Positions 7,562-61,810 of a DNA stretch of 64,000 nt are shown piece after piece (position 1 is the first letter of the stretch; each line of letters opens with the position of its first letter). The notes below the pieces were generated by a model, which was not told the DNA's origin, ran no database searches, and saw only the letters and a program-made list of their open reading frames with translations. The stretch covers positions 66,806,356 to 66,870,355 of the forward strand of contig CM055905.1 of assembly GCA_029582155.1 (NCBI GenBank). The letters run 5' to 3'. The stretch is from Panopea generosa (Eukaryota > Mollusca > Bivalvia > Adapedonta > Hiatellidae). Made by a program: the position numbers and the translations under genes.

Positions 7562-7614
7562 GACATTATATAGGCATGTAGCATTAAGGAGTCGGACACA
7601 AAAGTCTGGACAAA
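7562..7614 (+). promoter_or_regulatory. Putative core promoter and short leader of B-box gene 1
   Basis: A TATA-like TTATATA lies at 7566-7572, 43 bp before the ATG, followed by GGAGTCGGACACA. The corresponding stretch is conserved before the copies at 33966, 45305 and 46429 and at the window's right end, although the TATA-like core reads TTATTTA in two of them. Placement of the start site is inference. Confidence 0.4.
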
Positions 7615-21715: not shown

Positions 21716-23578
21716 TAGTAGAAGTAGTAGTGGAAACAGCAATAGTAGTAGTAATAGCAATGGTAGAAGAAGTGTAGTGTAGTAATAATTGAAGAAGTAG
21801 TAGAAGTTGTAGTAGCAGTGTAGTAATAGTTGAAGTATAGTAACAGTAGTAGTAGTAATAGTTGTAGAAGTAATAGTAGTAGTGTAGTAATAGGTGTAGT
21901 AGTAAAAGTAGTAGTTTAGTAATAGTAGTAATAGTAGTAGTTGTAATAGTAGTAGAGTAGTACTAGTTGTAGTGTAGTAAAAGTAATAGTATTAGTAGTA
22001 ATAGTAGTAGTGTAGCAATAGTAGTAGTAGTATAAGTAGTAAAAGTAGTAGTGTAGTAATAGTTGTAGTGTAGTAATAGTAGAAGTAGTAATAGTAGAAG
22101 TAGTATTAGTAGCAAAAGTTGCTATAGTTGTAGTGTAGTGTAGTAATAGTTGTAGTGTAGTACTAGTTGTAGTGTAGTAAAAGTAATAGTATTAGTAGTA
22201 ATAGTAGTAGTGTAGCAATAGTAGTAGTAGTATAAGTAGCAATAGTAGTAGTGTAGTAATAGTTGTAGTGTAGTAATAGTAGAAGTAGTAATAGTAGAAG
22301 TAGTTATAGTAGAAGACGTATTAGTAGCAAAAGTTGCTATAGTTGTAGTGTAGTGTAGTAATAGTTGGAGTGTAGTTATGGTAGTAGTATAAATAGTAGT
22401 AGTAATAGTAGTAGTGTAGTCATAGTTGTAGTGTAGTAATAGTAGTAGTAGTAATAATAGAAGTAGTAATAGTAGAAGTAGTATTATTAGCAATAGTTGT
22501 AGTGTAGTGTAGTAATAGTTGTAGTGTAGTAATGGTAGTAGTATTAATAGTAGTAGTAATAGTTTTAGTAGTTATAGTAGTATTGTAGTAATAGAAGTGG
22601 TAATAGTAGTAGTAGTGTATAAATAGTAGTAGTAGTAATAGTAGAAGTAGTAATAGTAGAAGTAGTATTAGTAGCAATAGTTGTAGTGTAGTGTAGTCAT
22701 AGTTGTAGTGTAGTAATGGTAGTAGTATTAATAGTAGTAGTGATAGTTTTAATGGTTATAGTAGTAGTGTAGTAATAGAAGTGGTTATAGTAGTAGTAGT
22801 GTATAAATAGTAGTAGTAGTAATAGTAGTTGTGTTGTCATAGTTGTAGTGTAGTAATAGTAGTAGTATTAGTAGTATAGTATAAGTTGTTGTGTATTTAT
22901 AGTAGTAGTGAAGTAATAGTTGTAGTAGTAATAGTAGTTGTGTAGTAATAGTTGTAATTTAGTATTAGTAGTAGTATTAGTAGTATAGTAGTGTTGTAAT
23001 AGTAGTAGTGTAGTAATAGTTGTAGTAGTAATAGTTGAAGTAATAAAAATAGTAGTAGTAGTAGCATAAGTAGTATTAGTATGGTAGAAATAGTTTTAGT
23101 AGTAGTAGTGAGGTAATAGTAGTAGTAGTAATAGTAGTAGTGTAGTAATAGTTGTAATGTAGTAAAAGTAGTAGTGCTGTAATAGTAGTTGTAATAGCAG
23201 TAGTAGTGTAGTAATAGTAGTAGTTATAGTTGTAGTGTAGTAATAGTAGCAGTGTAGTAATAGTAGTAGTAGTAATTGTAGAAGTGTAGTAACAGTTGTA
23301 GTAATAAAAGTAGTAGTAGTAAAAGCATAAGTAGTATTAGTAGGGTAGTTGTAGTAGTAGTAGTGAGGTAATTAGTAGTAGTAATAGTAGTAATAGAAGT
23401 AGCAGTAGTATTAGCAGCAGTAGTAATAGTAGTAGTAAAAGAACTAGTGTAGTGATAGTAGTAGAGGTAATTGTAGTAGTAGTAATAGAAGAGTAGTAGT
23501 AGTAATAGTAGTAGTAGTTAAAGTAGTAGTATAAATAGCAGTAGTATTAGCAGTAGAGGTAATAGTAGAAGTAGAAGT
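21716..23578. repeat. TAG/TAA-rich trinucleotide microsatellite, about 1.86 kb
   Basis: Mixture of GTA, ATA and GTG steps (runs such as TAGTAGTAATAGTAGTAG) with recurrent TAGTGTAGTAATAG blocks. Some blocks are duplicated as wholes, for example about 21960-22150 versus 22160-22350. Frames through it (poly-Thr/Tyr/Leu) are artefacts. Confidence 0.95.
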
Positions 23579-23728
23579 TTACCATTATTTTGTTGATGAA
23601 GCTGAGTGTGTTTAATAATGGTGTACTAATGCTGCTTATAAGTATTGTAATGATGAAAACTTTGTGCATAATATAGGGATGATGCTTTTGATTAGTATGT
23701 TAAATCAGGTACTCATACAATACTTTCA

Positions 23729-25600
23729 GATGATAATGATACTATTGGTTATAATGTTGACATAGGTGATTATGTATATCGATGGAAGGAAGATATGAAC
23801 TGTTGAGCACTATGTTAACTACAATAATTATGCATATTGTTGGGATGATAATGATACTATTGGTTATTATGTTGCTGTAGCTGATTATGTACATGTATAT
23901 CGGTGAAAGGAATATATAAATTGTTGAGCACTATGTTAACTACAATAATTATACATATTGTTGGGATGATAATGATACTATTGGTTATTATGTTGCTGTA
24001 GCTGATTATTTATATCGATGGAACGAAGATATGAACTGTTGAATACTATGTTAACTACAATAATTATGCATATTGTTGAGATGATAATGATACTATTGGT
24101 TATTATGTTGCTGTAGCTGATTATGTACATGTATATCGGTGAAAGGAATATATAAATTGTTGAGCACTATGTTAACTACAATAATTATACATATTGTTGG
24201 GATGATAATGATACTATTGGTTATTATGTTGCTGTAGCTGATTATTTATATCGATGGAACGAAGATATGAACTGTTGAATACTATGTTAACTACAATAAT
24301 TATGCATATTGTTGGGATGATAATGATACTATTGGTTATTATGTTGCTGTAGCTGATTATGTACATGTATATCGGTGAAAGGAATATATAAATTGTTGAG
24401 CACTATGTTAACTACAATAATTATACATATTGTTGGGATGATAATGATACTATTGGTTATTATGTTGCTGTAGCTGATTATTTATATCGATGGAACGAAG
24501 ATATGAACTGTTGAATACTATGTTAACTACAATAATTATGCATATTGTTGAGATGACAATGATACTATTGGTTATAATGTTGATGTAGGTGATTATGAAT
24601 ATCGATGGAAGGAAGATATAAATTGTTGAGCACTATGTTAACTACAATAATTATACATATTGTTGGGATGATAATGATACTATTGGTTATAATGTAGATG
24701 TAGTTGATTATTTATATCGATGGAACGAAGATATGAACTGTTGAATACTATGTTAACTACAATAATTATGCATATTGTTGAGATGATAATGATACTATTG
24801 GTTATTATGTTGATGTAGGTGATTATTTATAGCGATGGAAGGAAGATATGAACTGTTGAATACTATTTTAACTACAATAATTATGCATATTGTTGGGATG
24901 ATAATGATACTATTGGTTATAATGTTGATGTAGGTGATTATGTATATCGATGGAAGGAAGATATGAACTGTTGAACACTATTTTAACTACAATAATTATG
25001 CATATTGTTGGGATGATAATGATACTATTGGTTATTATGTTGATGTAGGTGATTACTTATATCTATGGAAGGAAGATATGAACTGTTGAACACTATGTTA
25101 ACTACAATAATTATGCATATTGTTGGGATGATAATGATACTATTGGTTATAATGTTGATGTAGGTGATTATGTATATCGATGGAAGGAAGATATGAACTG
25201 TTGAACACTATTTTAACTACAATAATTATGCATATTGTTGGGATGATAATGATACTATTGGTTATTATGTTGATGTAGGCGATTATTTATATCGATGGAA
25301 GGAAGATATAAACTGTTGAGCACTATGTTAACTACAATAATTATGCATATTGTTGGGATGATAATGATACTATTGGTTATAATGTTGATGTAGGTGATTA
25401 TGAATATCGATGGAAGGAAGATATAAATTGTTGAGCACTATGTTAACTACAATAATTATGCATATTGTAGGGATGATAATGATACTATTGGTTATTATGT
25501 TGATGTAGGCGATTATTTATATCGATGGAAGGAAGATATAAACTGTTGAATACTATGTTAATTACAATAAGTAAACATATTGTTGGGATGGTAATGGTAC
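23729..25600. repeat. Satellite of 115/121-bp units with a dimeric higher-order section
   Basis: Units start GATGATAATGATACTATTGG at 23729, 23844, 23965, 24080, 24201, 24316, 24437, 24552 (variant), 24667, 24782, 24897, 25012, 25127, 25242, 25357 and 25472. From 23844 to 24552 spacings alternate 121 and 115 bp, that is, three copies of a 236-bp dimer; the long form carries GTACATGTATATCGGTG. After 24552 all spacings are 115 bp. No coding potential. Confidence 0.95.
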
Positions 25601-25879
25601 TTCTTATAGTGATGATAAGAATCAAGATAACAGTTGATTATCCTTCAATCAAGTGACATAATTAGTTATTTCTCACTTGTGATCAGTAATTATGAGTTAA
25701 CAAAATATATATATTGCCTCTTCTTTACCAAAACATGCTTATAAAAGCGCTTTCTTTTTTTTTTCTTAAATACACTTCGATTATGACATTCTGGACTACC
25801 GCGAGAGAGCTGGGGTAACATGTGGAGCAATGTAAATGTCATACAATTTTGTGCTTGAAGATCGCATTTGTACTGGTGT

Positions 25880-27500
25880 CGGATATGTTTTTATTTTATC
25901 TTTCAACAATTACATGACAATATTTTACCACCAATCCTATTACCAAGTGATAACACAGATAGCATATCAATTATTAGTATATCGCCTAACAATGTAAATA
26001 GTATCTTAGAAACACTGCCAAAGCCCCAGGTCCCGATGATATCAACAGTTACGTTTTGCGTGAAATATCTAATGAAATATCGATGCCTTTATGCAACTTA
26101 TTTAATGTTTGTCTGACCAAAGGTGTTTTCCAAAAAGTCTAGAAAGAAGCATTTGCATGCGCTGTTTATAAAAAGGGAGATCCTTCCTTGGTTAATAACT
26201 ATAGACCTATATCACTGTTAAGCGTAATTGGCAAATTGTTTGACAGACTTATTTATGAACACATACATGTATATAATTTCTTTCGTGATACCAAATTTAT
26301 TTCGTTATTTCAATCTGTTTTTGTTCCTAGCGATTTAACAATTAACCAGTTATCTTATCTGTACAATATATTCAGTAAAACTATTGATGACGGTAAAGAA
26401 GTTCGCGTTATATTTGACCTAAGCAAGGCTTTTAATAGAGTTTGGCACAGAGGTCTAATAGTCAAATTAAAAGGAGCAGAAATGCCAAATCAGCTTATAA
26501 ATTTACTAAATGACTACCTTAAAGATAGGCAACAATGTGTTGGTTTGCCTGGTGTCAAATCTGATTGGACATTAATCAAGGCTGGAGTGCCTCAGGGGTC
26601 CATTTTAGGTCCGCTTCTATTTTTAGTCTATATTAATGACATAGTATCTGATATCGCAACTAACATTCGTCTTTTTGCAGACGATACAAGCCTGTACTTT
26701 ATAATCGATCACTTTAACAACATCAACAATGCTGCACAATTTGTTTTTAATTCCGACATCAACAAAATCACTGAATGGTCAAAACAATGACTTGTAACTT
26801 TCAATCCGTCAAAGACTTAATCGCTTCTTATATCTAGGAAACGTAATCAACCCATCCAACCACCACTATATATGCATAACCAACAAATATCAGAAGTACA
26901 CTCACACAAACACTTGATATACTTTTATCAAATAACTGTACCTGGCACTCTCATATTGAATACATAAAGGATAAGGCATGGTCAAGAATTAAAATCATGA
27001 GAAAATTGAAATACCAGCTAGACAGAAGATTCCTGGAGACTATACATGTTTTATCCGACCACTGTTAGAATATGGTAACACATTCTGGGATAACTGTACT
27101 TATTAAGATAAACACGAGTTAGATAAAATTCAACACGAAGCAGCACGCATTGCGACAGGAACAACAAAACGAGTACAATTAATAATTTAAACACAGAAGT
27201 TGGGTGAGAAAGTCTAGAAACTCGAAGAACGAAACACAAATTAAATATGTTCTATAAAATGGTAAACCATATGACTCCTCCCTACTTATCTGCACTAGTA
27301 CATGTACCATCCCAAATAGGTGGAAAATTCCCCGTAAATCTCAGAAATAGTTATGACCTACAAATTCCAAGTTCGAGAACAGCGCTCTACTATAATTCTT
27401 TCATGCCATCCGTTGTCTGTGATTGGAACCATCTACCTATTGAAACAAGACGTCGAGTCGTTTCTATCAAATGTCTTTTAGCAACAGCTAAATAAAAAAT
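25880..27500 (+). pseudogene. Degenerate LINE ORF2 (reverse transcriptase and C-terminal part)
   Basis: RT motifs are readable in order: NNYRPISLLSVIGKL, VIFDLSKAFNRVW, KAGVPQGSILGPLLF and LFADDTSLYF, the last with the catalytic Asp pair. Upstream, out of frame, is a KAPGPDD-type thumb-proximal motif at about 26020; downstream the C-terminal region resumes near 27247 with WNHLPIETRR. No endonuclease region is present and at least three frame breaks occur, so it is a 5'-truncated dead copy. It resembles, but is clearly diverged from, the LINE at 55083. The 3' end is about 27630, with AATAAAATAAGATAAAA. Confidence 0.85.
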
Positions 27501-27859: not shown

Positions 27860-29730
27860 ACAAATATGACAAACGAGCTATCTATCGAACCGATATGGCC
27901 GTCTATCCGCTCCTTAATGAAGTAATCACCCATGTGATTGCGTATATCGCATGTCTTTCATAAATTATCATAATTTATCTCTATCTGTTTAAGTCATATG
28001 CACAATTTGGCCCTTTGCCAATCTAATGATAGCGTCGCGAGTTTAGAAAAATATCAACCGTTGTTGCATTGCCAACAAAACTAAATACAATAAAAATCCT
28101 TTATTGTCAGTAGTATTGGTTAAGACAAGCGTTTAACTTAAAGGGTAACACGGCATTTTTTTTATAATTATTCATTTACCTCTATTTCTGAAAAGTATGT
28201 ATATATTATTTATTTCCGCTCCATCATAATATACCAACATATTCAATTTGTAATAAAATCAATGTACATTCGCATGAATAACGTATATTATGCCATTCAA
28301 CTTAGAATAATAAGAGACTCCGTATTTAAACCTTATCTTACGTGTATAATTACAGTATCTACACAATACAAATATGAAACTAAAATCAGAAATTTGGGTA
28401 TGCAGATTCTTATTGTCGTTTCTGTTTCGGAAAGGGGAATAACTTTCGTAAATGGATGAAACATCATCATATTTCAAACATTTGCGGTCAAATATGTCAA
28501 AAAGGGTAACAAATGTTTTCTTTTCTTCTGTTTTTTTTTCGGCATGAACTTTCACTCATATTTTTAAACTAAAGTAATGGATTTGTTTTATTAAACAAAA
28601 TATTAAACATATAATAGTATTCGATAACTGGCTATTACTTACTAATATAAGTTCAAAAATTAATTCGATGCGTAAACATAAGTTTAAAGATTTAAACATT
28701 GCTATGTGTCCCTTCAGTACAATGTATGTGCACGGGGAAGTAAAATAGCCCCATATATATCAATACATAAATATAAATATTTATATTCAGCGAGTAAATC
28801 AATGAATTATAAAGAGATACAAGTCCTTGGTGTAAACGAAAATACACAACATAAACGTTTTCTTTAAATGAACAACGTACAAGTGTTACAAAATGACTTA
28901 GTCCTCCTATTTTGCTAGGCCTAATTTTAGTAATTTTAAGAATGCTTATCTTAACTGTGACTTAATCACATTGGTATGTCTCTGTTGGAAGTCATGCAAT
29001 AATGTTATCTATATGAGAAGCCCCGCTCGTCTTTTAGTCGGTCCACAAGTGCTCGCCAAATTAGTTATTATGTGTTTATGTTTTATATATAATATTTTAT
29101 CAGTTTCAAGTATAAAGAAAGTTGTTACAATTATTGCTATATACTATGTTTACCATAGTGTTTATGTTGCGGTATAAAATATAAACTAGAATAAAGTTTT
29201 TTTTTAAAAATCATACAGTTAGGGTATATGAGCAGTGTATGTCATAATAATGACTTAATAAAATGTCTTCCATCGTACCACCGGATTCATATGGACGTGA
29301 CGACTGAAAAAATGTTGACCGGGCATACGGCAATTATTCTATATCAATATTTTTAATTATAATTTTCAGTAATAATTTAAGATAATACTATTAAAATTAC
29401 TGTTCAGAATTGAATTATTGTGTTTTATCTACCAGTAGTAGATCGACATAGAAATCAACAAAGAACTAATAAGCTCGTTACTGGATTTGTATTATGGTAT
29501 GATGCTTCAATTTTTAAAGTAGTGTGTGATATATATTAAGCTGTAAAATTTTCGTTGTTTTATTAAAGATAGTTTTATGTTATCAATATATAATATCCAG
29601 TAAATTGAGATTCTTTTAATGTTATTAAAGATGAGCAATATTATGGTTATTAAATTCTCCAATTCTAAAAAAAAAAGAGACATTTTATTTAATAAAAAAT
29701 AGAGATATTACACAATTGTATCGATATAAT
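27860..29730. repeat. Segmental duplication flank, copy 1 (partner 59710-61194)
   Basis: Starts near ATATGACAAACGAGCT (27866) and is collinear with 59718 onwards. Relative to the partner it has about 640 extra bases at roughly 28165-28805, whose ends (TTATAATTATTCATTTAC and, inverted, TTATAATTCATTGATTTAC) suggest an inserted element. No gene is evident. Confidence 0.75.
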
Positions 29731-30354
29731 TATGTGAAGTGCTTGGTCCAGTGGTAGAGTATCGGACCCAGAATCGCAGGGTCGTGGGTTTGGTCAATCT
29801 CCCGCGAATATGTGAAGTGCGTGGTCCAGTGGTAGAGTATCGGACCCAGAATCGCAGGGTCGTGGGTTCGGTCCTTTTCCCACGACAATGTGAAGTGCTT
29901 GGTCCAGTGGTAGAGTATCGGACCCAGAATCGCAGGGTCGTGGGTTCGATCCTTCTCCCACGACAATGTGAAGTGTGTGGTCCAGTGGTAGAGTATCGGA
30001 CCCAGAATCGCAGGGTCGTGGATTCGATCCTTCTCCCACGATTATGTGAAGTGCTTGGTCCAGTGGTAGAGTATCGGACCCAGAATCGCAGGGTCGTGGG
30101 TTCGGTCCTTCTCCCACGACTATGTGAAGTGTGTGGTCCAGTGGTAGAGTATCGGACCCAGAATCGCACGGTCGTGGGTTCGGTCCTTCTCCCACGACTA
30201 TGTGAAGTGTGTGGTCCAGTGGTAGAGTATCGGATCCAGAATCGCAGGATCGTGGGTTCGATCCTTCTCCCACGACTTTGTGGAGTGCTTGGTCCAGTGG
30301 TAGAGTATCGGACCCAGAATTGTAGGGTCGTGGGCTCGATCCTTCTCCCACGAC
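29731..30354 (+). repeat. tRNA-like 78-bp tandem array, locus 1 (8 units)
   Basis: Exactly 8 x 78 bp. Each unit holds an A-box-like TGGTCCAGTGG (fits TRGYNNARNNG) and a B-box-like GGTTCGATCC about 33 bp later, plus a GACCC/GGGTC stem and a CGTGGG/CCCACG stem. The T-loop is too long and there is no acceptor stem, so it is tRNA-derived but not a tRNA. The whole array is open in several frames, giving long artefactual repeat proteins. Related arrays lie at 38371-39454, 42289-42461 and 61195-61810. Confidence 0.9.
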
Positions 30355-31100
30355 TATGTGAGAACAGTCTCACTGAAATATATTTTAGATATTTTTATAC
30401 TTTCCGGAAATTTCGGGAAAGCATATAGTCGTGGCGGCCTCGTCCGTTCGTCCAAACGTCCCAATATCCTTGTCCAAGCTATTTCCCTATAAACTTTTGT
30501 TTTTTGATAGCTATATATAGTAAATAATGAACCATTATCCATAAGCTATAGTAAGATAGAGCCTGTGTCACTAACTACCAAGTGGAAATGTGCATATCGT
30601 CTTCGCGTTACTGTTCAGTGAGTTTTCATAGAGTTATTGCCCTCTTGTATTCTTTTAATTACCAAGTCCTTGTTCAAAGTTTGCGTATTTATGTTTGTCT
30701 GCCTATTTACCTCCAGTCACTGGTTGGAATTTGAAGAAATTTGCTAGAATGCATCACTTCCGAATGGAGATGCGCATATTGTCTTTGTGTTTTGGTTTGA
30801 TGATTTTTTCACAGAGTTGTGGCCCTTTGAGAATATACATTACATTGAGCAACACGTTTTCTACGGTGACCAATTTGGGCCATCGCTGCATTTTTTTTTC
30901 ACCACCGTCATTTGGACTTTTCATCATTGTAGTTTCAACTTTTTACCGTCGTTGTTTCGCCTTTTCATCACCGTAGTTTCGTTGTGCCGATTTCACTTAA
31001 TTTAATAAATATGCCACGATGGCCTAAAGAGGACACCGTAGTTTTCGGGAAACATATGATGTCACGCGATATTTACCTACCATAGGCGTAGAGCCGCGGG
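30355..31100. repeat. Array-adjacent dispersed repeat, copy 1
   Basis: Begins GAACAGTCTCACTGAAATA with the inverted motif CCGGAAATTTCGGG and continues to GTCACGCGATATTTACCTAC. Homologous stretches follow the tRNA-like arrays at 43083-43870 and 61818-62595. Ends with the TTTCGACTTTTCACC-type units also seen upstream of gene 1. Confidence 0.8.
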
Positions 31101-31289
31101 GGCCAATATTCAGGTTGGGTGGGCAGCATATAATTCTCCGCCCCCTACCCCCCCCCCCCCCCTCCCTAATAATTTGACAAAAAATGTCTAAATTTCAAAA
31201 CTTACCAAACATCTGGAGTAAATGACAACATATTTTTTTGCTCCCCAAAAAATTTTTTTGGTCGCATCAAGTAATCGTAGCGTCCGTCC

Positions 31290-32400
31290 GTCCGTCCATC
31301 CGGTATTTCGTTTCCGGCCTACAACTTTGTCATGCATAGATGGATTTTGTTGAAACTTGCTACAAATGATCAACATAACATGATGACATGTTGCGAGTAA
31401 GACCCACACCCGTACCTCAAAGGTAAAGGTCATAATTTGAGTTTGTTTGACAACACTTTGAGTTTGTGTGAGATTTCGTGTCTGGTCTGTAACTTTGTCA
31501 TGCATAGATGGGTTTTATAAATACTTGCTACAAATGATCAACATAACATGACGATGTGTTGCAAGTAAGACCCATACCCATACCTCAAAGGTCACGGTCA
31601 CACTTTGAGTTTGTTTGACAACACTTTTCGTCTGTTTGAGATTTCGTGTCTGGTCTGTAGTTTTGTCATGCATAGATGGATTTTGTTAATACTAGCTACA
31701 AATGACCGACATAACATGACGATGTGTCTCGCAATACACCCGGAATCCCACTTCAAAGGTCAAGTTCACAATTTAACTTTGGTTGATGCATTTCTGTCTG
31801 ATTGAGATTTCGTGTCCGGTCTGAAACTTTGTCACATATGGATAAATTTCAAAAACACTTGGCTCAATTCATCAGCATGCCATTACAAAGTGTCACGTGT
31901 AAGACCCACATGCGTACCTCAAAAGTCAAGGTCACACTTTGAGTTTGTTTGACAGCACTTTCAGTCTGTGTGAGATTTCTTGTCCGATCTATAACTTTGT
32001 CATCTATGGATATATTTTGATAACACTAGGCTCAGCTGATAAATATGACATAATTAAGTGTCGCATGTAAGACCCAGAACCTTTCCCCAAAGGTCAAGGT
32101 CACACTATCAATTTGTTTGATATTGTGTGACTGGTCTGTGAGTTTGTCTTTAACTTGGCTCAATTTATCAAGATGACATGACGACGTGTCATAAGAAATA
32201 CCTAGACACTGTCACACTTTGAGTATGTATGACAACACTTTGAATCTGTTTGAAATTTCACGTCTGTCCTATAACTTTATCATACATGGATGGATTTCAA
32301 AAACACTTGGTTCAATTTATCAATTGATCGACAATTGATCTGTAACTTACATTTAGGGATTTTAAAATAGCTTGACACAAGTGATCAGCATGTCATGAAA
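31290..32400. repeat. Degenerate tandem repeat, period about 165-175 bp
   Basis: About seven or eight units, each with a form of GTCTGGTCTGTAACTTTGTC then CATGCATAGATGG, AAGACCCACA and AAAGGTCAAGGTCACAC. Starts are near 31305, 31481, 31651, 31816, 31982, 32133 and 32264. Divergence increases rightwards. Absent from the partner blocks at 43.9 and 62.6 kb, so it is an insertion or expansion in this copy. Confidence 0.8.
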
Positions 32401-33749: not shown

Positions 33750-33938
33750 ACGATAACGAAAGTACAAAGTTAAACATAGCATACGTATCAGTCATTATTT
33801 AGGCGTATAAATACGATAACGAAAGTATAAAGTTTAACATAGCATACGTGTCAGTCATTATTTAGGCGTGTAAATACGATAACGAAAGTACAAAGTTTAA
33901 CATAGCATACGTGTCAGTCATTATTTAGGCCTGTAGTA
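33750..33938 (+). promoter_or_regulatory. Triplicated 63-bp putative promoter segment of gene 2
   Basis: Three tandem copies starting ACGATAACGAAAGTA at 33750, 33813 and 33876, each with TCAGTCATTATTTAGGC. The equivalent sequence occurs once before gene 3 (about 46336) and in diverged form before gene 1. The third copy leads directly into the leader, which lacks a few bases of the GGAGTCGGACAC found elsewhere. Confidence 0.6.
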
Positions 33939-33965
33939 TTGAGTAGACACATTAAACTGAACAAA

Positions 33966-35867
33966 ATGTCAGTTCCCGGGAAGAAAGCTAGATATATTGG
34001 GGCATCTGAAGCTCCAGGTGATTCCGAGGAAATGGGAAAATCAATCTGTCAGCCTTGTAACGAGGAAGGAAACGATATACCTGCCGCGGGATTCTGTGTA
34101 GATTGTTGTGAATACTTGTGTGACATGTGTTTTACAACACACCGCCGGGCTAGACCCTTCAGAAAACATGTTCTTCAAGAAAAGACGACGATGACAAGAC
34201 GCAAACCCATTACAAAAACATCGGATATAACCGACGACGAATGTACTGAACACCAAGGAGAGAAAATTAAATTTTACTGCGGGTCACATGACCACCTTGG
34301 CTGCGGTACATGTGTGGCTATTGGTCATCGAAGTTGTGACGGTGTAATTTATGTTGAAACACAATACGAACATTTAAATAGGTCACTGACCGATATCAAA
34401 CAGGAAGTAGACAGTCATGAAAAGAGAGCCGAACATAATGGAAATGACGTTGATAAATATCACTCGAATGCTATACAGGAAATAAGACAGTTTAGAAAAG
34501 AAATAAACAACTCTTTAGACAAATTTGAAAATGATGTTATCAGCGAAGTAGACAAGGTTAAAGAAGAAGATAAAGTAGTGATGACGTCATTATCTTCGAA
34601 ACTGGACGCAATGAAAGTTGAAATATCGTCTACAATCACAGAACTAAATGCTCTGTACGACTTAAAACGCAATCGGAAACTGTTCGCTACTATGGCCAAA
34701 GCGGAAGAAAAAATACAGACCTTAGAGAACGGCATCAGTCAGATAACGGCCGACAACAAGATATGTAGTTACAGGTTTGAGCCCGAGAAGCAGTTGAAAG
34801 ATTTGCTCGAAAATGTGAAATCTATAGGGAAAATAAGTGTAATGGATTGCAACAAAAGTGTTATTATGGAACCTATACCACGACACATACCACTCCAAAC
34901 ACAGAACAAGTCCAGACAATGCAAATTGGAGCAAACAGAGACGAGCAGAAGTGGTCAGCAAACACAACCGGAACCTCCACTGGACAGTGCAATGAAACAA
35001 TCAGAAGTGTCCAGTGACCGTCTATTGATGCAAAGACACGATCAACAAACAAGAACTGACGAACTTCAAGTTGCAACGTACATTTCTGACATCAATGTTC
35101 AATCACCAGGTGATACCATATGCTCCATCGTGGGATCAATACTGTTGCCTGGCAACCAATTCGTCATTGAGGATTATGACAATAAAAAGATTAAACTCTT
35201 AAGCACAAAACAAAATAAAATTAAATCTAAAATACGACTGTCATCAGGACCATGGGACGTTACAAAGATCAACAACAGTAAAGTTGCCGTGACACTACCT
35301 TTGCTGGGTATGATACAGTTAGTGTCAGTAGGGTATCAGTCACTGTCTACAGACCGAGATATAAAAGTGAATGGTCGGTGTTATGGTATAGTATATAATA
35401 ATGCGACACTTATAGTGACATTTGTACTACCGGAGAGAGTGGAAATAATCAACATGAGTGGTGCCGTGTTGAAGACCTTGGTGAACGACGCCAGTGGAAC
35501 ACCACTGTTTAAATGGCCGCAGTACATAGCCATCAACCCAGATAAGACGGCCGTGTACGTGTCTGATTACAACAAGCACTCAGTGACCTGTATGACACTG
35601 GAGGGCAAGGTGAAGGCCGTCTACAAGGATGATAACCTGGAACGTCCCCGTGGTTTGACTTTAGACAGGACCGGAACAGTGTATGTCTGTGGAAACTGCT
35701 CCGATAACATCCACCAGATTACCGCTGACTGTACCAAGATACAGATACTGCTGGATCAGCGACATGGACTAGCTAGTGCGGAATCAATCGCTTACTGTGA
35801 TAAGGAGGACAAACTGTTTGTTGGAATGTGTAAGATCAATGTCGTAAAAATGTTTCAGTTGAAATAG
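33966..35867 (+). CDS. RING-less TRIM-like protein 2: B-box, B-box, coiled coil, NHL-like propeller (633 aa)
   Basis: Intact single-exon paralogue of 7615-9531. I chose the ATG at 33966, which gives the shared start MSVPGKKA; the frame is open to 33939 but that codon is TTG. Both B-boxes keep their Cys/His set (CQPC, FCVDCCEYLCDMC, then CTEH, FYCGSHDHLGCGTC, GHRSC). The coiled-coil region is almost unchanged relative to gene 3. Differences concentrate in the propeller, for example CSIVGSILLPGNQFVIEDYDNK where gene 1 has CWITGAELLPGKQLVIADYNNN, which may reflect divergent ligand surfaces (inference). The first 26 residues carry a GASEAPGDSEEMG segment shared with gene 3 and absent from gene 1. 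Likely cytoplasmic adaptor-like protein; target unknown. Confidence 0.9.
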   Translation: MSVPGKKARYIGASEAPGDSEEMGKSICQPCNEEGNDIPAAGFCVDCCEYLCDMCFTTHRRARPFRKHVLQEKTTMTRRKPITKTSDITDDECTEHQGEKIKFYCGSHDHLGCGTCVAIGHRSCDGVIYVETQYEHLNRSLTDIKQEVDSHEKRAEHNGNDVDKYHSNAIQEIRQFRKEINNSLDKFENDVISEVDKVKEEDKVVMTSLSSKLDAMKVEISSTITELNALYDLKRNRKLFATMAKAEEKIQTLENGISQITADNKICSYRFEPEKQLKDLLENVKSIGKISVMDCNKSVIMEPIPRHIPLQTQNKSRQCKLEQTETSRSGQQTQPEPPLDSAMKQSEVSSDRLLMQRHDQQTRTDELQVATYISDINVQSPGDTICSIVGSILLPGNQFVIEDYDNKKIKLLSTKQNKIKSKIRLSSGPWDVTKINNSKVAVTLPLLGMIQLVSVGYQSLSTDRDIKVNGRCYGIVYNNATLIVTFVLPERVEIINMSGAVLKTLVNDASGTPLFKWPQYIAINPDKTAVYVSDYNKHSVTCMTLEGKVKAVYKDDNLERPRGLTLDRTGTVYVCGNCSDNIHQITADCTKIQILLDQRHGLASAESIAYCDKEDKLFVGMCKINVVKMFQLK

Positions 35868-38345: not shown

Positions 38346-38370
38346 CTAATCTAATATGAATTTACTCTGT

Positions 38371-39454
38371 AGTGCTTGGTCCAGTGGTAGCGTGTAGGAC
38401 CCAGAATCGCAGGGTCGTGGGCTCGATATTTCTCCCAAGACTTTGTGAAGTGCTTGGTCCAGTGGTAGCATGTAGGACCCAGAAACGCAGGGTCGTGGGT
38501 TCGATCCTTCTCCAACGACTTTTTGAAGTGCATGGTGTAATGGTAGAGTATCTGACCCAGAATTGCAGGGTCGTTGGTTCGATCCAGCTCCCACGACTAT
38601 GTGAAGTGCGTTGTCCAGTGGTACAGTTTCGGACCGAGAATCGCAGGGTCGTGGGTTCGAACCTTCTCCCACGACTATGTGAAGTGCGTTTTCCAGTGGC
38701 AGAGTTTAGTTTCGGACTCAGAATCACAGGGTTGTTGGTTCGAACCTTCTCCCACGACTTTGTGAATTGCTTGGTCCAGTGGTAGAGTTTCGGACTCAGA
38801 ATCGTAGGGTCATGGGTTTGATCCTTCTGCCACGACTATGTGAAGTGAGTGTTCCAGTGGTAGAGTGTCGGACCCAGAGTCGCAGTGTCGTTGGTTCGAT
38901 CCTTCTCCCGCGAATATGTGAAGTGCTTGGTCCAGTGGTAGAGTATCGGACCCAGAATCGCAGGGTCATGGGTTCGATCCTTCTCCCACGACCATGTGAA
39001 GTGCTTGGTCCAGTGGTAGTGTGTAGGACCCAGAATGGCAGGGTCGTGGGTTTGATCCTACTCCCACGACTATGTGAAGTGAGTGTTCCAGTGGTAGAGT
39101 ATCGGACCCAGAATCGCAGTGTCGTGGGTTCGATCCTACTCCCGCGAATATGTGAAGTGTTTGGTCCAGTGGTAGAATATCGGACCCAGAATCGCAGGGT
39201 CGTGGGTTCGATCCTTCTCCCGCGACTATGTAAAGTGCTTGGTCCAGTGGTAGAGTATCGGACCTAGAATCGCAGGGTCGTGGGTTCGATCCTTCTCCCA
39301 CGACTATGTGAAGTGCTTGGTCCAGTGGTAGAGTATCGGACCCAGATTCGCAGAGTCGTGGGTTCAATCCTTCTCCCACGACTATGTGAAGTGCTTGGTC
39401 CAGTGGTAGCGTGTAGGACCGAGAATCGCAGTGTCGTTTGTTCGACCGTTCTCT
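38371..39454 (+). repeat. tRNA-like 78-bp tandem array, locus 2 left part (14 units)
   Basis: Fourteen units of the 78-bp tRNA-like repeat, more diverged than locus 1 (GCGTTGTCCAG, GAGTGTTCCAG and other A-box variants). The last unit is interrupted at 39454 by a DNA transposon and resumes at 42289. Confidence 0.9.
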
Positions 39455-42288
39455 CACGGTCAGGGAACTCTGTCACAACGTAGAGTGATTCGCGTCGACA
39501 GTTTGTCACAGATTCACGTCGACAGTATTATTCTTTTGTAAATTTTGTCACAGTTGCTAGTCGATAGCGGGGACATAATCGCTGATATGTTTTTATAATC
39601 AAATGTATGAAGTATATATTTGACATTCCGGGGAATGTAGTGTATTATAAGTAAAATACGATCAAATTGAACATCTGATTATGAATATTTCTTCAAGTTT
39701 AAAATTTTTAAAATGTCACAGGTTTGTGACGACAGTGTAACGGAGGCGTGTCGATCCTTATTTAAATGTCACGGATTCAGTGTCGATAGTTTAACATTGT
39801 AGAATAGTGCAACCCTGCGCCATTACTGCCATTTACACTTCGAGTCTCGTACAGAGGCTGTCCGGCATATAGTTTTAGAGGATTGTCGTTATGTTACGGA
39901 TTATGTTTGTGAAAGTTAGAACCGACACACAGAAGCAAAATAATACCTCGGTACTTACAACCCAATAGCAATAGTCATGTTTCGTGAGACTTGCGCTGTT
40001 AGTTTAAAACTCTACATATAACGAATCATTTTAGGGAAAAATTGTCACTTTTTATACGTATTTCCGTATTTACGTTTTGAGTGATGTATTTATCCAGCTC
40101 ATCGATTGTGTCATGTCTTGTCCTCAATTAACTACCCAAGTTTGAGACTCGGATTAAAATCTTCCGTTATTCTCCATTATTCGTTTTCTTTTATCTAACA
40201 AATAAGAAATTTAATTAAGATTTGAACTTGAAATAATAAAACAAAATGTACACAAAAACTATCATGATCTGCAGGGGAAAATATGAAAGACAATTTAGGG
40301 TAACGTGAACACCAGCAAGTATACTTGGGATTCTGGAGATGTGCTTATTTACACATGTCAATATATCGTACATTTGACTCACACTCACACAACAATAAAT
40401 CTTGTATTTATGTGTTTTATACGTTTTATATGAGTATATGATCATCTGAAGGGAAAATATGTTGTAATGTTATCTTATATATAGGCCTTACTCAGCAAAA
40501 AAAAACCGTTCCTCTTTTTTATAACTGATGTTGCTCTGTCTTTGTTTCATGCCCAGTGTACATGTATTTTTTACCTTGGTGATGTTGTGATCATATGCAC
40601 CGTGTACATAGATAGCACTCAGTGTCCAGAACATTCATTTCCACTTTTTCCACGTGCACATGCAGTCGACAGTTTTTCAGTCCACGTCATACGATTCATG
40701 CAATAAAGGCCGATTTGATTTTGTTTTCAGTTTTCAACATGCAACGGATTTCTGAAACGGATGCAATAAAATGATAGTGGGTGGTGTAACGGCCATGGTG
40801 TTGTCGCAAATATAATGAGCGACTTGAGGCACGTTTCCGATCAACCTGAACTGTTTACAGTCGCCTCGTTAACGGTAAACCTGGAGAGACAAAGACCGGA
40901 ACCGAACGTTGACGTAGTTACGTTAGTGTCTGTTGCGAGCTTCCTTCGCTGCTGGGCAGCATGGCGTTTCAGTACAGACTATTCGTTACCGTTTGCGTCG
41001 TAACTCCAAACTAATCAGAGTAGCGCGGCGCCCATACACTAGTACTGGTCAAATAATGACCCGACGTCACATCGCTGCCATGTTTTTATGTGTGCGACGT
41101 CATCTGAACTGGCAATCTGATCAACTCGGCCATTATGCTTCGCAACAGTGTATTATACGGAGGATACGGAAATACCCGATGTTTCACGATTGCTTTACTG
41201 GAGCTAAATGGCAGCACATGTTCACCAGGCAATACTTGACCCAGGTCAATGTTTTCACATGGCCGGAAGTTTCACTTGATCCTTGCAAAAATTAAGAATA
41301 TCTGGGTCATAAAAATGATAATCTCTATGATTTGGCTCAGGCGTTGTTACGGTGATCGAGTAAATTGCAAAATGCATTGGTTTTGCGTTACGTTATGTCG
41401 AGACGCCGTTAAATTATTGAATACATACCTGCAAATGGTAGATTGGCAAATTCTTACTCAAACTCGATGACCTAAACTTTACATAATGAGTGTCTGATAG
41501 TTTGTGACTTTTTATTTTGATCCCCCCCCCCCCGCCCCAACCCACCCAACATACACACAGACACACGCGCGCGTACGCGCACACACACAAATACGCACAT
41601 ACGCACGCACGCACGCACGCACGCACACACAGGAAAGAAGTTAACATCTACTGACAGTCATGACATTTAATGTAAAATGAAATGTTTTATTTTCAAAAAT
41701 CTGAGCTGTTTCATTGATGGCTGAGAAAGGACATCTAATCAATGATAGGCCTTTATTCAGATCACAATACAGCGAGGAATCTTAGACAAAAGATATGTCC
41801 ATTTCTGCCAATAGTGTCGACTAGAATCTGTGACCCTGTAGAGAAGAATCCGTGACTTTTAAATCAACATCGACACAAACCTGTGACACGTGAAGCTTTT
41901 TTCAAACGGAATTTCTCACATAGAATAAGTAAAAAGTCAATTAGTTATAACTCTTGTTTTAAACAAAAATACTTAAACAACAGTTATAAATGATGTTTTG
42001 CACTGATTAATGTTTTTATTGACAATTTCATCGCTACTTTCGTTTTATATACATATTTAGCGAGGATTCATTAATTCTTGCGTTTTAAACATTTACTAAT
42101 TAACACATGATTGTTTGGAACATTGAAAATATTTAATTAATATCAGGTGAAACTCAATCTTGTAAAACGTTTAAAACTTATAGCTGTATCCAGTAAATAA
42201 TTTATTTTATATGCATCAGATCGACGTGAATCTGTGACAAACTGTCGACGCGAATCACTCTACGTTGTGACAGAGTTCCCTAACCGTG
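39455..42288. mobile_element. 2.8-kb DNA transposon with about 70-bp inverted repeats and repeated subterminal motifs
   Basis: The ends are inverted repeats: the left starts CACGGTCAGGGAACTCTG, and the right end is its reverse complement with one change (CACGGTTAGGG read inwards), extending about 68 bp. The 5-bp TCTCT is duplicated at 39450-39454 and 42289-42293; removing the element and one TCTCT restores a normal tRNA-like array unit. Inside each end, motifs of the form TGTCAC(A/G)GATTC...GTCGA(C/T)AGT recur about four times in direct orientation on the left (to about 39795) and inverted on the right (from about 41808). Most of the interior is non-coding. I cannot assign a superfamily. Confidence 0.85.
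40933..41295 (+). pseudogene. Tc1/mariner-like transposase fragment inside the transposon
   Basis: The frame contains GVSVQTIRYRLRR, matching the second helix-turn-helix of Tc1-type transposases, then RRPYTSTGQIMTRRHIAAM and VRRHLNWQSDQ, matching the linker before the DDE core. The catalytic DDE region is absent or unreadable and the N-terminal part is in another frame. Tc1 elements duplicate TA, not 5 bp, so this is probably a nested relic rather than the element's own enzyme. Confidence 0.6.
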
Positions 42289-42461
42289 TCTCTCGCGACT
42301 ATGTAAAGTACTTGATCCAGTGGTAGAATATTGGACCCAGAATCGCAGGGTCGTGGGTTCGACCCTTCTCCCATGACTACGTGAAGTACTTGATCCAGTG
42401 GTGGAGTATCGGACCCAGAATCGCAGGGTCGTGGGTTCGATCCTTCTCCCACGAATATGTG
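42289..42461 (+). repeat. tRNA-like 78-bp tandem array, locus 2 right part
   Basis: Remainder of the interrupted unit plus two further units (TACTTGATCCAGTGG variants), ending at CACGAATATGTGAAG. Together with 38371-39454 the pre-insertion array had about 16 units. Confidence 0.88.
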
Positions 42462-43082
42462 AAGTGGTCTTGATCAAGACACTTAAACCTTTTATGCTTA
42501 GTACTAGTTTTACCTAGGAACACGTGCCTAAGTTGTAATAACTTGTTTCACAATCGAAGTAAACTAAATACTTATTAGATATAAAATATTTTTTAACCGA
42601 AGTATATCTGTCTAGATCTCTTTTATGTATGCATTGCCAAATTAGTCATGTCTTCTATGTATTATGTTACGAACATGTCTATTCAATTGTCTCTGTCTGG
42701 CCAAGGCTATAAACATTATTATCTGGCGGAGCCCCAAGTTTTTAAAAGTTACGTACTTCTCGTGGTTGTAAGCGCCTATGTGATATCGATTTTCACGGAT
42801 TAGACATTTAATACGAATGGTCTATGCACAATACAGAAGCAGATTTAGTAAATGAGTTTACCGAATGTATTTACAGCACTCCGCAGCTGCCCCTGGGCTG
42901 CGTTCAGCACATTTAAACAGCAAACACGTTTTAATGCCTGGTTCCCTAAAGTTTTCGCGTATTGCGTGCTCATATGAGGTCGAACCGGTGTATAAAAATG
43001 TGTTAGCTAACGTTATCAAACGTTTAACCGTACTGAACGCAGCCATTATTTAACACGAAAATCTGTCTGTTAAAGGCTAATC
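42462..43082. other. No gene recognised
   Basis: Mixed-composition DNA. Short overlapping frames on both strands at 42858-43053 show no recognisable domain. Confidence 0.5.
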
Positions 43083-43918
43083 CCGAGAACAGTGTCACTG
43101 AAATATATTTTAGTATTTTTATACTTCCCGAAAGTTTCGGGAAAGCATATAGTCGCGGCCACCTCGTCCGTCGTCCGTACGTTCCCATATCCTTGTCCTA
43201 GCTATTTCCCTATCAACTTTTGTTGGAATTTTATGAAACTTGCTAGGATATATCATAACCCGCAGGCCCTATCTTGCTATAGCTTTTGGTTAACTATATA
43301 TTGTGAATAATGGACCATTATCCACAAGCTATAGTAAGATAGAGCCTGTGTCACTAACTACCAAGTGGAAACGTCTTCGCGTTACGGTTTAGTGAGTTTT
43401 CACAGAGTTATGGCCCTATTTTTCTTTCAATTACCAAGTCCCTGTTCAAAGTTTGCGTATTTATGTTTGTTTGCCTATTTACCTCCAGTCACTGGTTGGA
43501 ATTTTAAGAAACTTGCTAGAATGTATCACTTCCAAGTAGAGATGCGCATATTGTCTTTGTTTTTCGGTTTGATGATTTTTCCACAGAGTTGTGGCCCTTT
43601 GAGTATGTACATTACATGGAGCAACACGTTTACTACGGTGACCAATTTGGACCATCGTTGCATTGTTGTTTTTTTTCACAATCGTCGTTTCGACTTTTCA
43701 CCATCGTAGTTTCGACTTTTTACCGTCTTTGTTTCGACTTTTTATCACTGTAGTTTCGTTGTGTAGATTTTATTTAATTTAATAAATATGCCGCGATGGC
43801 CCAATCAGGACACCGTAGTTTTATGAACACATAATGATGTCACGCGATATTTACCTACCATAGGCGTAGGGCCGCGGGGGCCAATGTTCAGGTTTGTAGG
43901 GCAGCATATACTTCACCC

Positions 43919-43949
<31 letters not shown>

Positions 43950-45180
43950 CCTACCCCCAATATTTTGATTAAAATGTCAACATTTCACAAAAATACCTTA
44001 AACATCTGGAGTAAATGACAACATTTTCTTTTAGAATACAGCAGTTATTGTTTTAAATATAAAAAAAAATTCCGGGTTAAGACCCACCACCAGCTCTCGT
44101 TTTGACTTGTCTTGCATGTGGTTTAAAACCCATCGGAAGCTAATTCTTAAAACATCTTACAAAAATCTTATTAAAACGTTTAAATGACACAAAAAATATT
44201 GGAATAAATAACAACCATGTTCACACTTCACGTTATCAAAAAACAGTATTATTTTTTTTTAATTATATTCAAAACGTTTTCACATGAGGCCCCTCGTACC
44301 CCAATCAGCAAACGACACCCTCTCCCGCACTGGAGTAAATGACAGTCCTATATGTTATTCTAAAAACTCACTAGAATGCAGCATTTGGTGTCTTTAATAT
44401 AATTTTTATTTCAGGGGCAGGCAGGAGGGGGTGGGGTGGCGCGTGCCGACACTAGATTAATCCAACATTCTCCCTCACATTTTAAAAGTATTGAATAAAT
44501 AACAACCATCCCCCCACCCCCTAAAACTAACTCGAATAGAGAATTCGGTTTTTAGAATACAAAACAAATCCAGGGGCCTGCGCCAATCAGTAGAGCACGC
44601 CACACTCTCTCAGTGCATGACGTACCAGGTTTAAAACCCAGTGAAAGTTCATTTTAATTGGTACATGTTATAGTTTGATAAAAACATGTCAAAGTCGCAA
44701 AATATTCGGGAGTGAAGAACAATTTTTTTTCTCTAAAACTTGTTAAAATACTGTATTAGGTTTTTAAGATCACAAAAGTTTCAAAGTACCCTCATCAGCA
44801 GGGACCCCCCCCCCCCCCCCCCACCCCCATGTCGAGAAAGGTGACCCCTCCGGTATTTGTTCTCACATCGCAAGCCTCGTGCATTTCCTGGCCACAAACG
44901 GTTTGCCTTGATAAAAATTCCTTTCTGGCTATGTCACTGCTCTTTTTCTTGACAAAAAACGCAGCCTTTTTTTCAAAACTTTTTTGGGGACCCCCCCCCC
45001 CCCCCCCCACCAGGGAATTCATCCACACATATACCCCATCGGGAGGGCGATACATCCTCATGCACTCTCTCCACAACACCTCCCCACCCCCATCGCCCCA
45101 ATTATTGAAACGCTCCTACGACCATGCCCACTGTTCCGCTTAATACCATTGACGTATACTACCTGTTTACCTGCAAGACA
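43083..45180. repeat. Segmental duplication, array-adjacent repeat and poly-C spacer (copy 2)
   Basis: Collinear with 61818-63890 and, with interruptions, with 30355-33700. Contains the palindromic pair CTATCTTGCTATAGCTT / AAGCTATAGTAAGATAG at about 43271-43345, TTTCGACTTTTCACC units at 43690-43755, and C-runs at about 43916-43934, 44805-44822 and 44991-45008. No gene. Confidence 0.8.
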
Positions 45181-46335: not shown

Positions 46336-46428
46336 CGATAACGGAAGTACAAAGTTTAACATAGCATACATGTCAGTCATTATTTAGGCCTGTAGCGTTG
46401 AGGAGTCGGACACATAAAGCTGAACAAA
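46336..46428 (+). promoter_or_regulatory. Putative promoter and leader of gene 3 (single copy)
   Basis: One copy of the ACGATAACGGAAGTACAAAG to TTATTTAGGC segment followed by GAGGAGTCGGACACATAAA and the ATG. Compare the triplicated version before gene 2. Confidence 0.4.
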
Positions 46429-48330
46429 ATGTCAGTTCCCGGGAAGAAAGCTGGATATATTGGGGCATCTGAAGCTCCAGGTGATTCCGAGGAAATGGGA
46501 AAATCAATCTGTCAGCCTTGTAACGAGGAAGGAAACGATATACCTGCCGCGGGATTCTGTGTAGATTGTTGTGAATACTTGTGTGACATGTGTTTTACAA
46601 CTCACCGCCGGGCTAGACCCTTCAGAAAACATGTTCTTCAAGAAAAGACGACGATGACAAGACGCAAACCCATTACAAAAACATCGGATATAACCGACGA
46701 CGAATGTACTGAACATCAAGGAGAGAAAGTTAAATTTTACTGCGGTTCACATGACCACCTTGGCTGCGGTACATGTGTGGCTATTGGTCATCGAAGTTGT
46801 GACAGTGTAATTTATGTAGAAACACAATACGAACATTTAAATAGGTCACTGACCGATATCAAACAGGAAGTAGACAGTCATGAAAAGAGAGCCAAACAAA
46901 ATGGAAATGACGTTGATAAATATCACTCGAATGCTATACAAGAAATAAGACAGTTTAGAAAAGAAATAAACAACTCTTTAGACAAATTTGAAAATGATGT
47001 TATAAGGGAGGTAGACAATGTTAAAGAAGAAGATAAAGTAATGGTGACGTCATTATCTTCGAAACTGGACGCAATGAAAGTTGAAATATCGTCTACAATC
47101 ACAGAACTAGATGCTTTGCACGACTTAAAACACAATCGGAAACTGTTCGCTACTATGGCCAAAGCGGAAGAAAAAATACAGACCTTAGAGAACGGCATCA
47201 GTCAGATAACGGCCGACGACAAGATACGTAGTTACAGGTTTGAGCCCGACAAGCAGTTGAATGATTTGCTCAAAAATGTGAAATCTATAGGGAATATAAG
47301 TGTAATGGATTGCAACAAAAGTGTTATTATGGAACCTATACCACGACACATACCACGCCAAACACAGAACAAGTCAAGACAATGCAATTTGGAGCAAACA
47401 GAGACGAGCAGAAGTGGTCAGCAACCACCACCGGAACTTCCACTGGACAGTGCAATGAAACAATTAGAAGTGCCCAATGACCGTCTCTTGATGCAAAGAA
47501 ACGATCAAAAAACAAGAACTGACGAACTCCGAGTTGCGACGTACATTTCTGACACCAATGTTCAATCACCAGGTGATACCACGTGCTACATCACGGGATC
47601 AGTATTGTTGCCTGGCAACCAACTCCTTATTGCGGATTATGATAATAAGAAGATTAAACTCGTAAACACAAAACAAAATAAAATTATCTCTGAAATACGA
47701 CTGTCATCACATCCATGGGACGTTACAAAGATCAACAACAGTAAAGTTGCTGTGACACTACCTTACAACGGTATAATACAGTTAGTGTCAGTAGTGTCTC
47801 AGTCACTGTCTACAGACCGAAATATAAAAGTGAATGTTCAGTGTCATGGTATAGTATATAATGGTGATACACTTATAGTGACATTTATGCACCCGGGGAG
47901 AGTGGAAATAATCAACATGAGTGGTGCCGTGTTGAAGACCTTGGTGAACGACGCCAGTGGAACACAACTGTTTGACTGGCCCAGGTACATAGCCATCAAC
48001 CCAGATAAGACGGCCGTGTACGTGTCTGATTACGGCAATCACTCAGTGATCTGTATGACACTGAAGGGCAAGGTTAAGGCCGTCTACAAGGATGATAACC
48101 TGGAACGTCCCCGTGGCCTGACTATAGACAGGACCGGGACAGTGTATGTCTGTGGATTCGTCTCCGATAACATCCACAAGATTACCGCTGACTGTACCAA
48201 GAAACAGAAACTGCTGAATCAACAACATGGAATAACTACACCACAATGCATCGCTTACTGTGATAAGGAGGACAAACTGTATGTTGGAATGTGGAAGAGC
48301 AATGTTGTGAAAATGTTTCAGTTGCACTAG
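46429..48330 (+). CDS. RING-less TRIM-like protein 3: B-box, B-box, coiled coil, NHL-like propeller (633 aa)
   Basis: Intact single-exon paralogue, closest to gene 2 (same N-terminal GASEAPGDSEEMG segment, same 3'-flank insertions). Both zinc-binding B-boxes are complete, including GCGTCVAIGHRSC. The coiled coil matches gene 2 closely. The propeller ends in KLYVGMWKSNVVKMFQLH. Local changes such as CYITGSVLLPGNQLLIADYDN show the beta-propeller diverging faster than the zinc modules. No RING and no membrane segment. Expected to act as an oligomeric cytoplasmic adaptor; function not shown by sequence. Confidence 0.9.
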   Translation: MSVPGKKAGYIGASEAPGDSEEMGKSICQPCNEEGNDIPAAGFCVDCCEYLCDMCFTTHRRARPFRKHVLQEKTTMTRRKPITKTSDITDDECTEHQGEKVKFYCGSHDHLGCGTCVAIGHRSCDSVIYVETQYEHLNRSLTDIKQEVDSHEKRAKQNGNDVDKYHSNAIQEIRQFRKEINNSLDKFENDVIREVDNVKEEDKVMVTSLSSKLDAMKVEISSTITELDALHDLKHNRKLFATMAKAEEKIQTLENGISQITADDKIRSYRFEPDKQLNDLLKNVKSIGNISVMDCNKSVIMEPIPRHIPRQTQNKSRQCNLEQTETSRSGQQPPPELPLDSAMKQLEVPNDRLLMQRNDQKTRTDELRVATYISDTNVQSPGDTTCYITGSVLLPGNQLLIADYDNKKIKLVNTKQNKIISEIRLSSHPWDVTKINNSKVAVTLPYNGIIQLVSVVSQSLSTDRNIKVNVQCHGIVYNGDTLIVTFMHPGRVEIINMSGAVLKTLVNDASGTQLFDWPRYIAINPDKTAVYVSDYGNHSVICMTLKGKVKAVYKDDNLERPRGLTIDRTGTVYVCGFVSDNIHKITADCTKKQKLLNQQHGITTPQCIAYCDKEDKLYVGMWKSNVVKMFQLH

Positions 48331-52559: not shown

Positions 52560-52970
52560 CGTTGATGTCATTTTAAAGGCCCCAAGACTAATGTTATCTT
52601 ACAAGAATGAATTGTCTCCCTTGCTCAAAATGGCGTAGGACGTGTTTTGTTTTTAGAGCCACCGAACTGTAAATAATAGTAATTAACTGATGAATTAGCG
52701 TTGTTATAGTGTTGTTTTCGCAAGGACGTGTAATTAAGGAAATATTTGGACATATTTGAACATATATTTGACTCGTGAGTAACTTGTATGTGTGACTATT
52801 GTGTATATAGAATATTGTATAAAAACGTTAACTTTGACCCTAGTTGACCTTAATGTTAATTGAAGGTACACGAATTGGGGGCACGCTGAAAATTTCAAAC
52901 TCTATACTGCAGAGCAAAGTTTACGCATCATTGCTGTTACTCTGTACTAGTCAACACCAAGTATACCAAA
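52560..52970 (+). other. Probable 5' untranslated region of the LINE
   Basis: Sequence between the piggyBac-type MITE and the ORF1 start; no other feature seen. The LINE's 5' end cannot be fixed without a second copy. Confidence 0.35.
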
Positions 52971-61194: not shown

Positions 61195-61810
61195 TATGTG
61201 AAGTGAGTGCTCCATTGGTAGAGTATCAGACCCAGAATCGCAGGGTCGTGGGCTCGATCCTTTTCCCACGACAATGTGAAATGCGTGGTCCAGTGGTAGA
61301 GTATCAGACCCAGAATCGCAGGGTCGTGGGCTCGATCCTTCTCCCACGACAATGTGAAATGCGTGGTCCAGTGGAAGAGTATCCGACACAGAATCGCAGC
61401 GTCGTGGGCTCGATCCTTCTCCAACGACTATGTGAAATACGTGGTCCAGTGGTAGAGCATCGGACCCAGAATTGCAGCGTCGTGGGCTCAATCCTTCTCC
61501 CACGACAATGTGAAATGCGTGCTCCAGTGGTATAGTATCGGACCAAGAATCGCAGAGTCATGGGCTCAATCCTTCTCCCACGACAATGTGAAGTGCTTGT
61601 TCCAGTGGTAGAGTATCGAACCCAGAATCGCAGGGTCTTTAGCCCGATCCTTCTCCCACGACAATGTGAAATGTGTGGTCCAGTGGGGGAGTATCAGACC
61701 CAGAATCGAAGGGACGTGGGTTCGATTCTTCTCCCACGACAATTTGAAATGCGTGTTCCAGTGGTAGAGTATCGGACGCTGGGTCGTGGGTTCGATCCTT
61801 TTCCAACGAC
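61195..61810 (+). repeat. tRNA-like tandem array, locus 3 (8 units)
   Basis: Eight units averaging 77 bp, same family as 29731-30354 but with GCGTGGTCCAGTGG and GCTCGATCC variants and one internally deleted last unit. Position and copy number match locus 1. Confidence 0.9.

Follow-up and report, generated by a model that had tools for sequence, protein, structure and literature searches.

Tandem arrays of a SINE head in the genome of Panopea generosa and the probable origin of a 78-bp minisatellite

Array A1, a tandem repeat of 78-bp units in the 64,000-nucleotide stretch of Panopea generosa DNA analysed here (the window), is very probably a SINE-derived minisatellite, formed by duplication of the SINE head in place and changed in length by unequal exchange. 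A preliminary description of this DNA had offered three readings of each unit: a polymerase III (pol III) start, a TFIIIC site, or a satellite born from a SINE head. It is the last of these that fits the evidence. In this one genome the step from dispersed retroelement to tandem repeat can be seen many times over, with the parent SINE, the joints and several sizes of array all in view.

Array A1 and its relatives in the window

The array was called by TRF at 29731-30361, with a period of 78, 8.1 copies, 92% matches and 0% indels, and alignment gave eight units, each of 78 bp, in agreement with what had been reported for 29731-30354. The array had also been called exact, but its eight units are all distinct: 19 of the 78 columns are variable, and the mean pairwise identity is 0.933 (93.3%). 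Absent from the preliminary description were three more stretches of the 78-bp unit and an array of a 37-bp half-unit, which are given here with the features that surround them.

5689-5801, minus strand: SINE body 3' of the 37-bp array, with about 40 bp of other sequence between them; model positions 87-200
5865-6556, minus strand: 37-bp array, 18.8 copies, from the box-B half of the SINE head (TRF)
29035-29730, plus strand: left flank of A1, common to A3 (60325-61194) and locus L030
29731-30354, plus strand: array A1, eight SINE-head units of 78 bp, without body (TRF, unit alignment)
30360-31239, plus strand: right flank of A1, common to 43085-44032 and A3
33906-35867, plus strand: B-box/NHL (TRIM-like) ORF downstream of A1
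about 38368-39454 (unit matches to 39458), plus strand: array A2, first 14 units (TRF, unit alignment)
39455-42288, no strand assigned: DNA transposon of 2,834 bp inside A2, flanked by the target duplication TCTCT and ending in 68-nt inverted repeats (99%)
42289-42454, plus strand: array A2 continued, the rest of the interrupted unit followed by two further ones (42301-42454)
42461-42573, plus strand: SINE body and tail straight after the last A2 head (SINE model)
61195-61810, plus strand: array A3, eight more of the 78-bp units, without body

The two A2 pieces, at 38 and 42 kb, belong to a single array that the DNA transposon interrupts. At the end of A2 the SINE model matches 42381-42573, over model positions 2-206 of 211. 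The transposon itself contains a 122-aa ORF without a Pfam match.

Two further loci belong to the same group. L029, which lies about 9 kb beyond the window end on this chromosome, has four units, the last of which runs straight into the body, while L030 has two units and no body. Both flanks of A1 and of A3 are common to L029, and both flanks of L030 are common to A1 and A3. The B-box/NHL ORF downstream of A1 has relatives at 7588-9531 and 46402-48330, and these three window copies are part of a larger set of duplications that includes the arrays. We considered a large transposon carrying the array and rejected it, because what flanks A1, A3, L030 and L029 alike is a duplicated gene region. 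No unit was found in L039 and L040, 6 kb either side of the window.

The earlier statement that the units occur without SINE bodies holds for A1 but not for sister arrays in which the body is kept. A model match at 30279-30419, by which A1 would run into a SINE body, was rejected because the same stretch, in the copy at 43085, starts 512 bp beyond the end of the true body match. Since the flanks of A1 are shared with the body-bearing L029, and the flank that begins at 30360 lies that far past the body at 42 kb, the simplest reading of these alignments is that A1 would be a paralog that lost its body.

Several other repeats were seen in the window. The right flank of A1 holds a 168-bp tandem repeat of about five copies (31305-32120), which is matched in L030 and falls within sequence that the A2 and A3 alignments lack. 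At 21716-25601 lie a TAG-rich repeat and an array with 16 copies of a 115-bp unit, and a run of 500 Ns (684-1183) lies beside a 14-bp minisatellite (1184-3045). The ORFs at 26143-26790, 52890-53819 and 55074-57929 resemble non-LTR retrotransposons by eye (reverse transcriptase-like or ORF1-like); among them 52890-53816 was scanned and gave weak matches.

The parent SINE

The assembly searched comprises 1.47 Gb in 39 contigs. A search with two units returned at least 60 matches, both arrays and single heads, and the best 40 of 1,609 first-look candidates were scored. A consensus and model were built from 22 single copies (20 fetched sites together with L037 and L038), and the matches of these 22 copies to the model are by construction, since the model was built from them. 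Their alignment defines a SINE of about 210 bp, with a head, a body starting with TGTGTGGTGTCCTTGAGCAAGACACTT and a tail ending with TTTCACAATCGAAGTAAAATAAATAAGTTTAAA. The tail is recognisable by eye in 17 of the 22 copies; L009, L011 and L015 have the body start only, and L013 and L026 have no clear body. Exact searches of the genome gave 6,326 copies of the head motif GGTCCAGTGGTAGAG and 5,611 of the tail motif TTTCACAATCGAAGT. Target duplications were assessed in 16 copies with near full-length model matches, truncated copies having been dropped beforehand: four have duplications of 8-11 bp and 12 have no clear one, against a null in which 0.3% of 2,000 mismatched flank pairs reach at least 8 bp. 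The element is thus short and dispersed, combines a pol III-type head with a body and a tail, and shows target duplications, as expected of a tRNA-derived SINE. TTGAGCAAGACACTT may resemble the conserved V domain of the V-SINE superfamily, and to judge from the likeness of the body the element possibly belongs to the same group as RUDI. An exact 28-base search of viral contigs gave 0 matches.

The likeness of the head to a tRNA was examined in this genome. Six loci were fetched out of 38 tRNA matches, and the SINE head gave a collinear 50-bp match to tRNA-Cys(GCA) with a score of 28, the maximum of 500 single-base shuffles being 24. One of the six compared loci, not called a tRNA by ARAGORN, scored 31 over 18 bp. 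With the Rfam tRNA model, one of 18 SINE loci was matched (E 2.5, 21.2 bits versus a cut-off of 29) and the remaining loci had no match at E 10; by Rfam the SINE head is a poor tRNA. Intact tRNA genes were rejected as an identity for the units: ARAGORN found none in the window and none in 20 of the loci, Rfam at its cut-offs found none in the window, and at E up to 10 it found no tRNA in A1 or in a single unit. In a separate observation, tRNA matches cluster at C9:62665606-62679307, many of them at a spacing of about 280 bp; the one fetched is a tRNA-Arg TCT.

Head arrays across the genome and their origin

We inspected 15 individual arrays, a count that leaves out six places, two on C3 (20-bp units) and four on C4. 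The SINE body stands at the 3' end of 11 of the 15, or of nine of the ten families when paralogs are counted once: A2, L029, L031, L033, L034, L035, the C27 array, three arrays on C2 and the 37-bp array. In these 11 the unit is a part of the SINE and the terminal unit runs to the SINE end, which is the form that defines a SINE-derived satellite (sSat). The four arrays without a body are an 80-bp array on C18 and three paralogs of A2 and L029, namely A1, A3 and L030. The preliminary description had named units embedded in a larger transposon among the findings that would refute it, and the units are indeed largely embedded in such an element, the SINE.

The whole-head arrays counted range from 2 to 94 units. 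Two 73-bp arrays on C9, L031 with three units and L034 with eight, have flanks that look alike. The 76-bp array on C18 (L033) consists of 22 units followed by the body and then by a second, partial body. There are 79-bp arrays on C6 (L035, 35 units) and on C27 (94 units), and the 80-bp array on C18 has 56 units. The arrays on C2 have units of 18 bp (57.7 copies), 83 bp (10.6 copies) and 65 bp (32.5 copies in one stretch). Units of about 20 bp from the box-A part of the head occur at C3:560507-561261 and C3:4192526-4193280, on opposite strands; the two arrays are perhaps one duplicated locus.

These structures suggest the following course of events. A SINE with a tRNA-like head inserted in a region upstream of a B-box/NHL gene, as homology to its dispersed copies shows. 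Sister arrays in which the heads lead into a body show that it was the head, not the body, that was duplicated in tandem. The first step would probably have been recombination or slippage between the SINE 5' end, TGTGGAGTG, and the head/body joint, TGTGTGGTGTC, which it resembles and which lies 77-79 bp downstream. Measured against the family consensus, the joints of six arrays fall at differing points of that stretch and share 1-6 bp, from which we infer independent duplications by slippage or unequal exchange; the differing periods and joints together point to repeated origin. Against this, the joint similarity of 1-6 bp is short, and the 18-, 20-, 37- and 65-bp units are left unexplained and need other joints.

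The length of the array would subsequently have been altered by unequal exchange, since five paralogs hold 2, 4, 8, 8 and 16 units, and the differing unit numbers between shared flanks support length change in place. The locus would have been copied along with the gene cluster, and on the simplest reading the body disappeared in the lineage that comprises A1, A3 and L030. The comparison of units is divided. Identity is higher among the units of A1 (0.933) than between A1 and A3 units (0.879), and A3-8, at the edge of its array, has L030-2 as its nearest match (0.942), both in favour of this course; against it, identity within A3 (0.867) is below that of A3 to A1 (0.879), and identity within A2 (0.855) is below that of A2 to A1 (0.885). 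Homogenisation is seen in A1 only. Also on the contrary side stand the absence of a body from four arrays, the second body of the 76-bp array, and a head that barely scores as a tRNA. When four array-bearing SINEs were tested end to end, no clear target duplication was detected (best 6-7 nt), so the case for origin from one insertion rests on structure.

The heads could instead have arisen before or during retrotransposition, in which case the array was inserted ready-made as a multi-headed SINE. Heads and body do form one collinear unit in the 11 body-bearing arrays, but the number of units varies among paralogs that share flanks (A1 8, A3 8 and L030 2; L031 3 and L034 8), and no multi-head form was seen at two unlinked sites among the arrays inspected. 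Moreover, the C6 and C27 arrays have the same 79-bp period, yet their units differ at the joint. We consider a ready-made insertion to be very unlikely, and duplication in place followed by unequal exchange remains the preferred reading of A1.

Boxes A and B, known SINE-derived satellites and the head bias

Another reading gives the units a maintained role as pol III promoters or TFIIIC sites next to the B-box/NHL genes, where they could act as an insulator, a boundary or a source of small RNA. Gene copies do lie downstream of A1 and of the end of A2, and box A (TGGTCCAGTGG), which had been attributed to each A1 unit, is present in all eight, with none of the eleven-column windows of the alignment better conserved. 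Box B (GGTTCGATCC) had likewise been attributed to each unit, but it is found in two of the eight, as is the pattern GWTCRANNC, and is broken in the other six; 65 of 68 eleven-column windows are better conserved. The two A1 units that keep both boxes by pattern have them 44 bp apart, start to start. In the rest of the window, with the 78-bp arrays excluded, the plus strand has 0 pairs of boxes A and B 30-60 bp apart and the minus strand 1. A1 contains one TTTT, which counts against a maintained role of this kind, and the next after the array is at 30383.

The same comparison was made in eleven other sets of at least two units. Box A was the best conserved part once (the two units at 42301), and box B twice (the four units of L029 and two units of L031); elsewhere neither was. 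Of the 94 units of the C27 array, 70 retain both boxes, as a maintained role would predict, but a strict box B is absent from every unit scored in four other array families: 0 of 2 and 0 of 7 in the 73-bp arrays, 0 of 21 in the 76-bp array, 0 of 35 in the 79-bp array on C6 and 0 of 55 in the 80-bp array. The constraint on boxes A and B that is expected of a functional pol III gene array was not found. Since the boxes are not consistently better conserved than the remainder of the unit, the evidence does not support maintenance of the units for pol III or TFIIIC, and we regard such a role as highly improbable. Weaker boxes may still work; judged from sequence, the array is probably without maintained function, and occasional transcription from sporadic pol III starts is possible. 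That the repeat is an unrelated satellite resembling the SINE head by chance, as the body-less A1, A3, L030 and C18 80-bp arrays might suggest, can be dismissed as next to impossible, as the SINE model matches the 78-bp units of A1, A2 and A3 with 37.7-95.6 bits, and in both A2 and L029 the heads are in register with the body that follows.

SINE-derived satellites are known from a search of 56 squamate genomes, whose authors call older published SINE-satellite examples inconclusive and the restriction of such satellites to squamates uncertain (PMC10702118). The arrays described here resemble the squamate ones in that a part of a tRNA-derived SINE is repeated in tandem, with a longer terminal unit that reaches the SINE end, and in the existence of independent variants of few to many units; they differ from the 67-nt unit of the snake sSat, which takes in the box-B-bearing 3' portion of the head and a section of the body, whereas in P. 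generosa the whole head or sub-pieces of it are repeated (PMC10702118). Squamate sSats are described as preferring subtelomeres (PMC10702118). Hydromantes Hy/Pol III and Xenopus laevis Satellite 1 are amphibian repeats listed as deriving from a tRNA-related region (PMC9659126); these too are tandem repeats with such a region, while in the present case the genome that holds the arrays also contains the parent SINE. Among molluscs, PcH-sat of the limpet Patella is reported to derive from Nin-SINE, and is likewise a satellite from a SINE, but one without boxes A and B (PMC11121367). The V-SINE RUDI is described as widespread in molluscs (Luchetti 2016, cited in PMC11121367 and PMC10294476), and the conserved V domain of V-SINEs as about 120 bp long (PMC6887750). 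Among papers searched by title and abstract opening, a set outside which most subscription papers and RUDI's own lie, none was seen to report a mollusc in which entire tRNA-like heads are arrayed in tandem and joined to a SINE body. The letters of the SINE motifs had no match in the literature search, and the accessible parts of PMC10900743 and PMC5874043 contain nothing on SINE heads. As a kind, SINE-derived satellites are known in reptiles; the notable part here is the head bias.

This bias appears in the spacing of the two exact motifs. The head motif forms 366 tandem pairs at a spacing of 65-94 bp, and its reversed control forms 0; at least 100 of these pairs were located, at nine places on C2-C4 among the matches listed. 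The tail motif forms six such pairs, at two places. The resulting excess of head over tail is roughly 50-fold for this spacing, a rough measure because pairs within an array are not independent, arrays inflate the count for the head, and the chosen spacing would miss any tail arrays with other periods. As a hint open to testing, the excess points to the promoter part of the SINE as the seed of satellites. It is conceivable, though on balance doubtful, that the head is intrinsically a hot spot for tandem duplication beyond what its short repeats would give: bound pol III or TFIIIC could stall forks or hold the DNA open, so that pieces of the head (18 to 83 bp) would be recopied and the tail rarely. 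If this were true, SINE families would seed minisatellites at their promoters. A counter-example is found at C4:94505313-94506336, where the SINE body and tail are repeated in tandem at a spacing of 92 bp.
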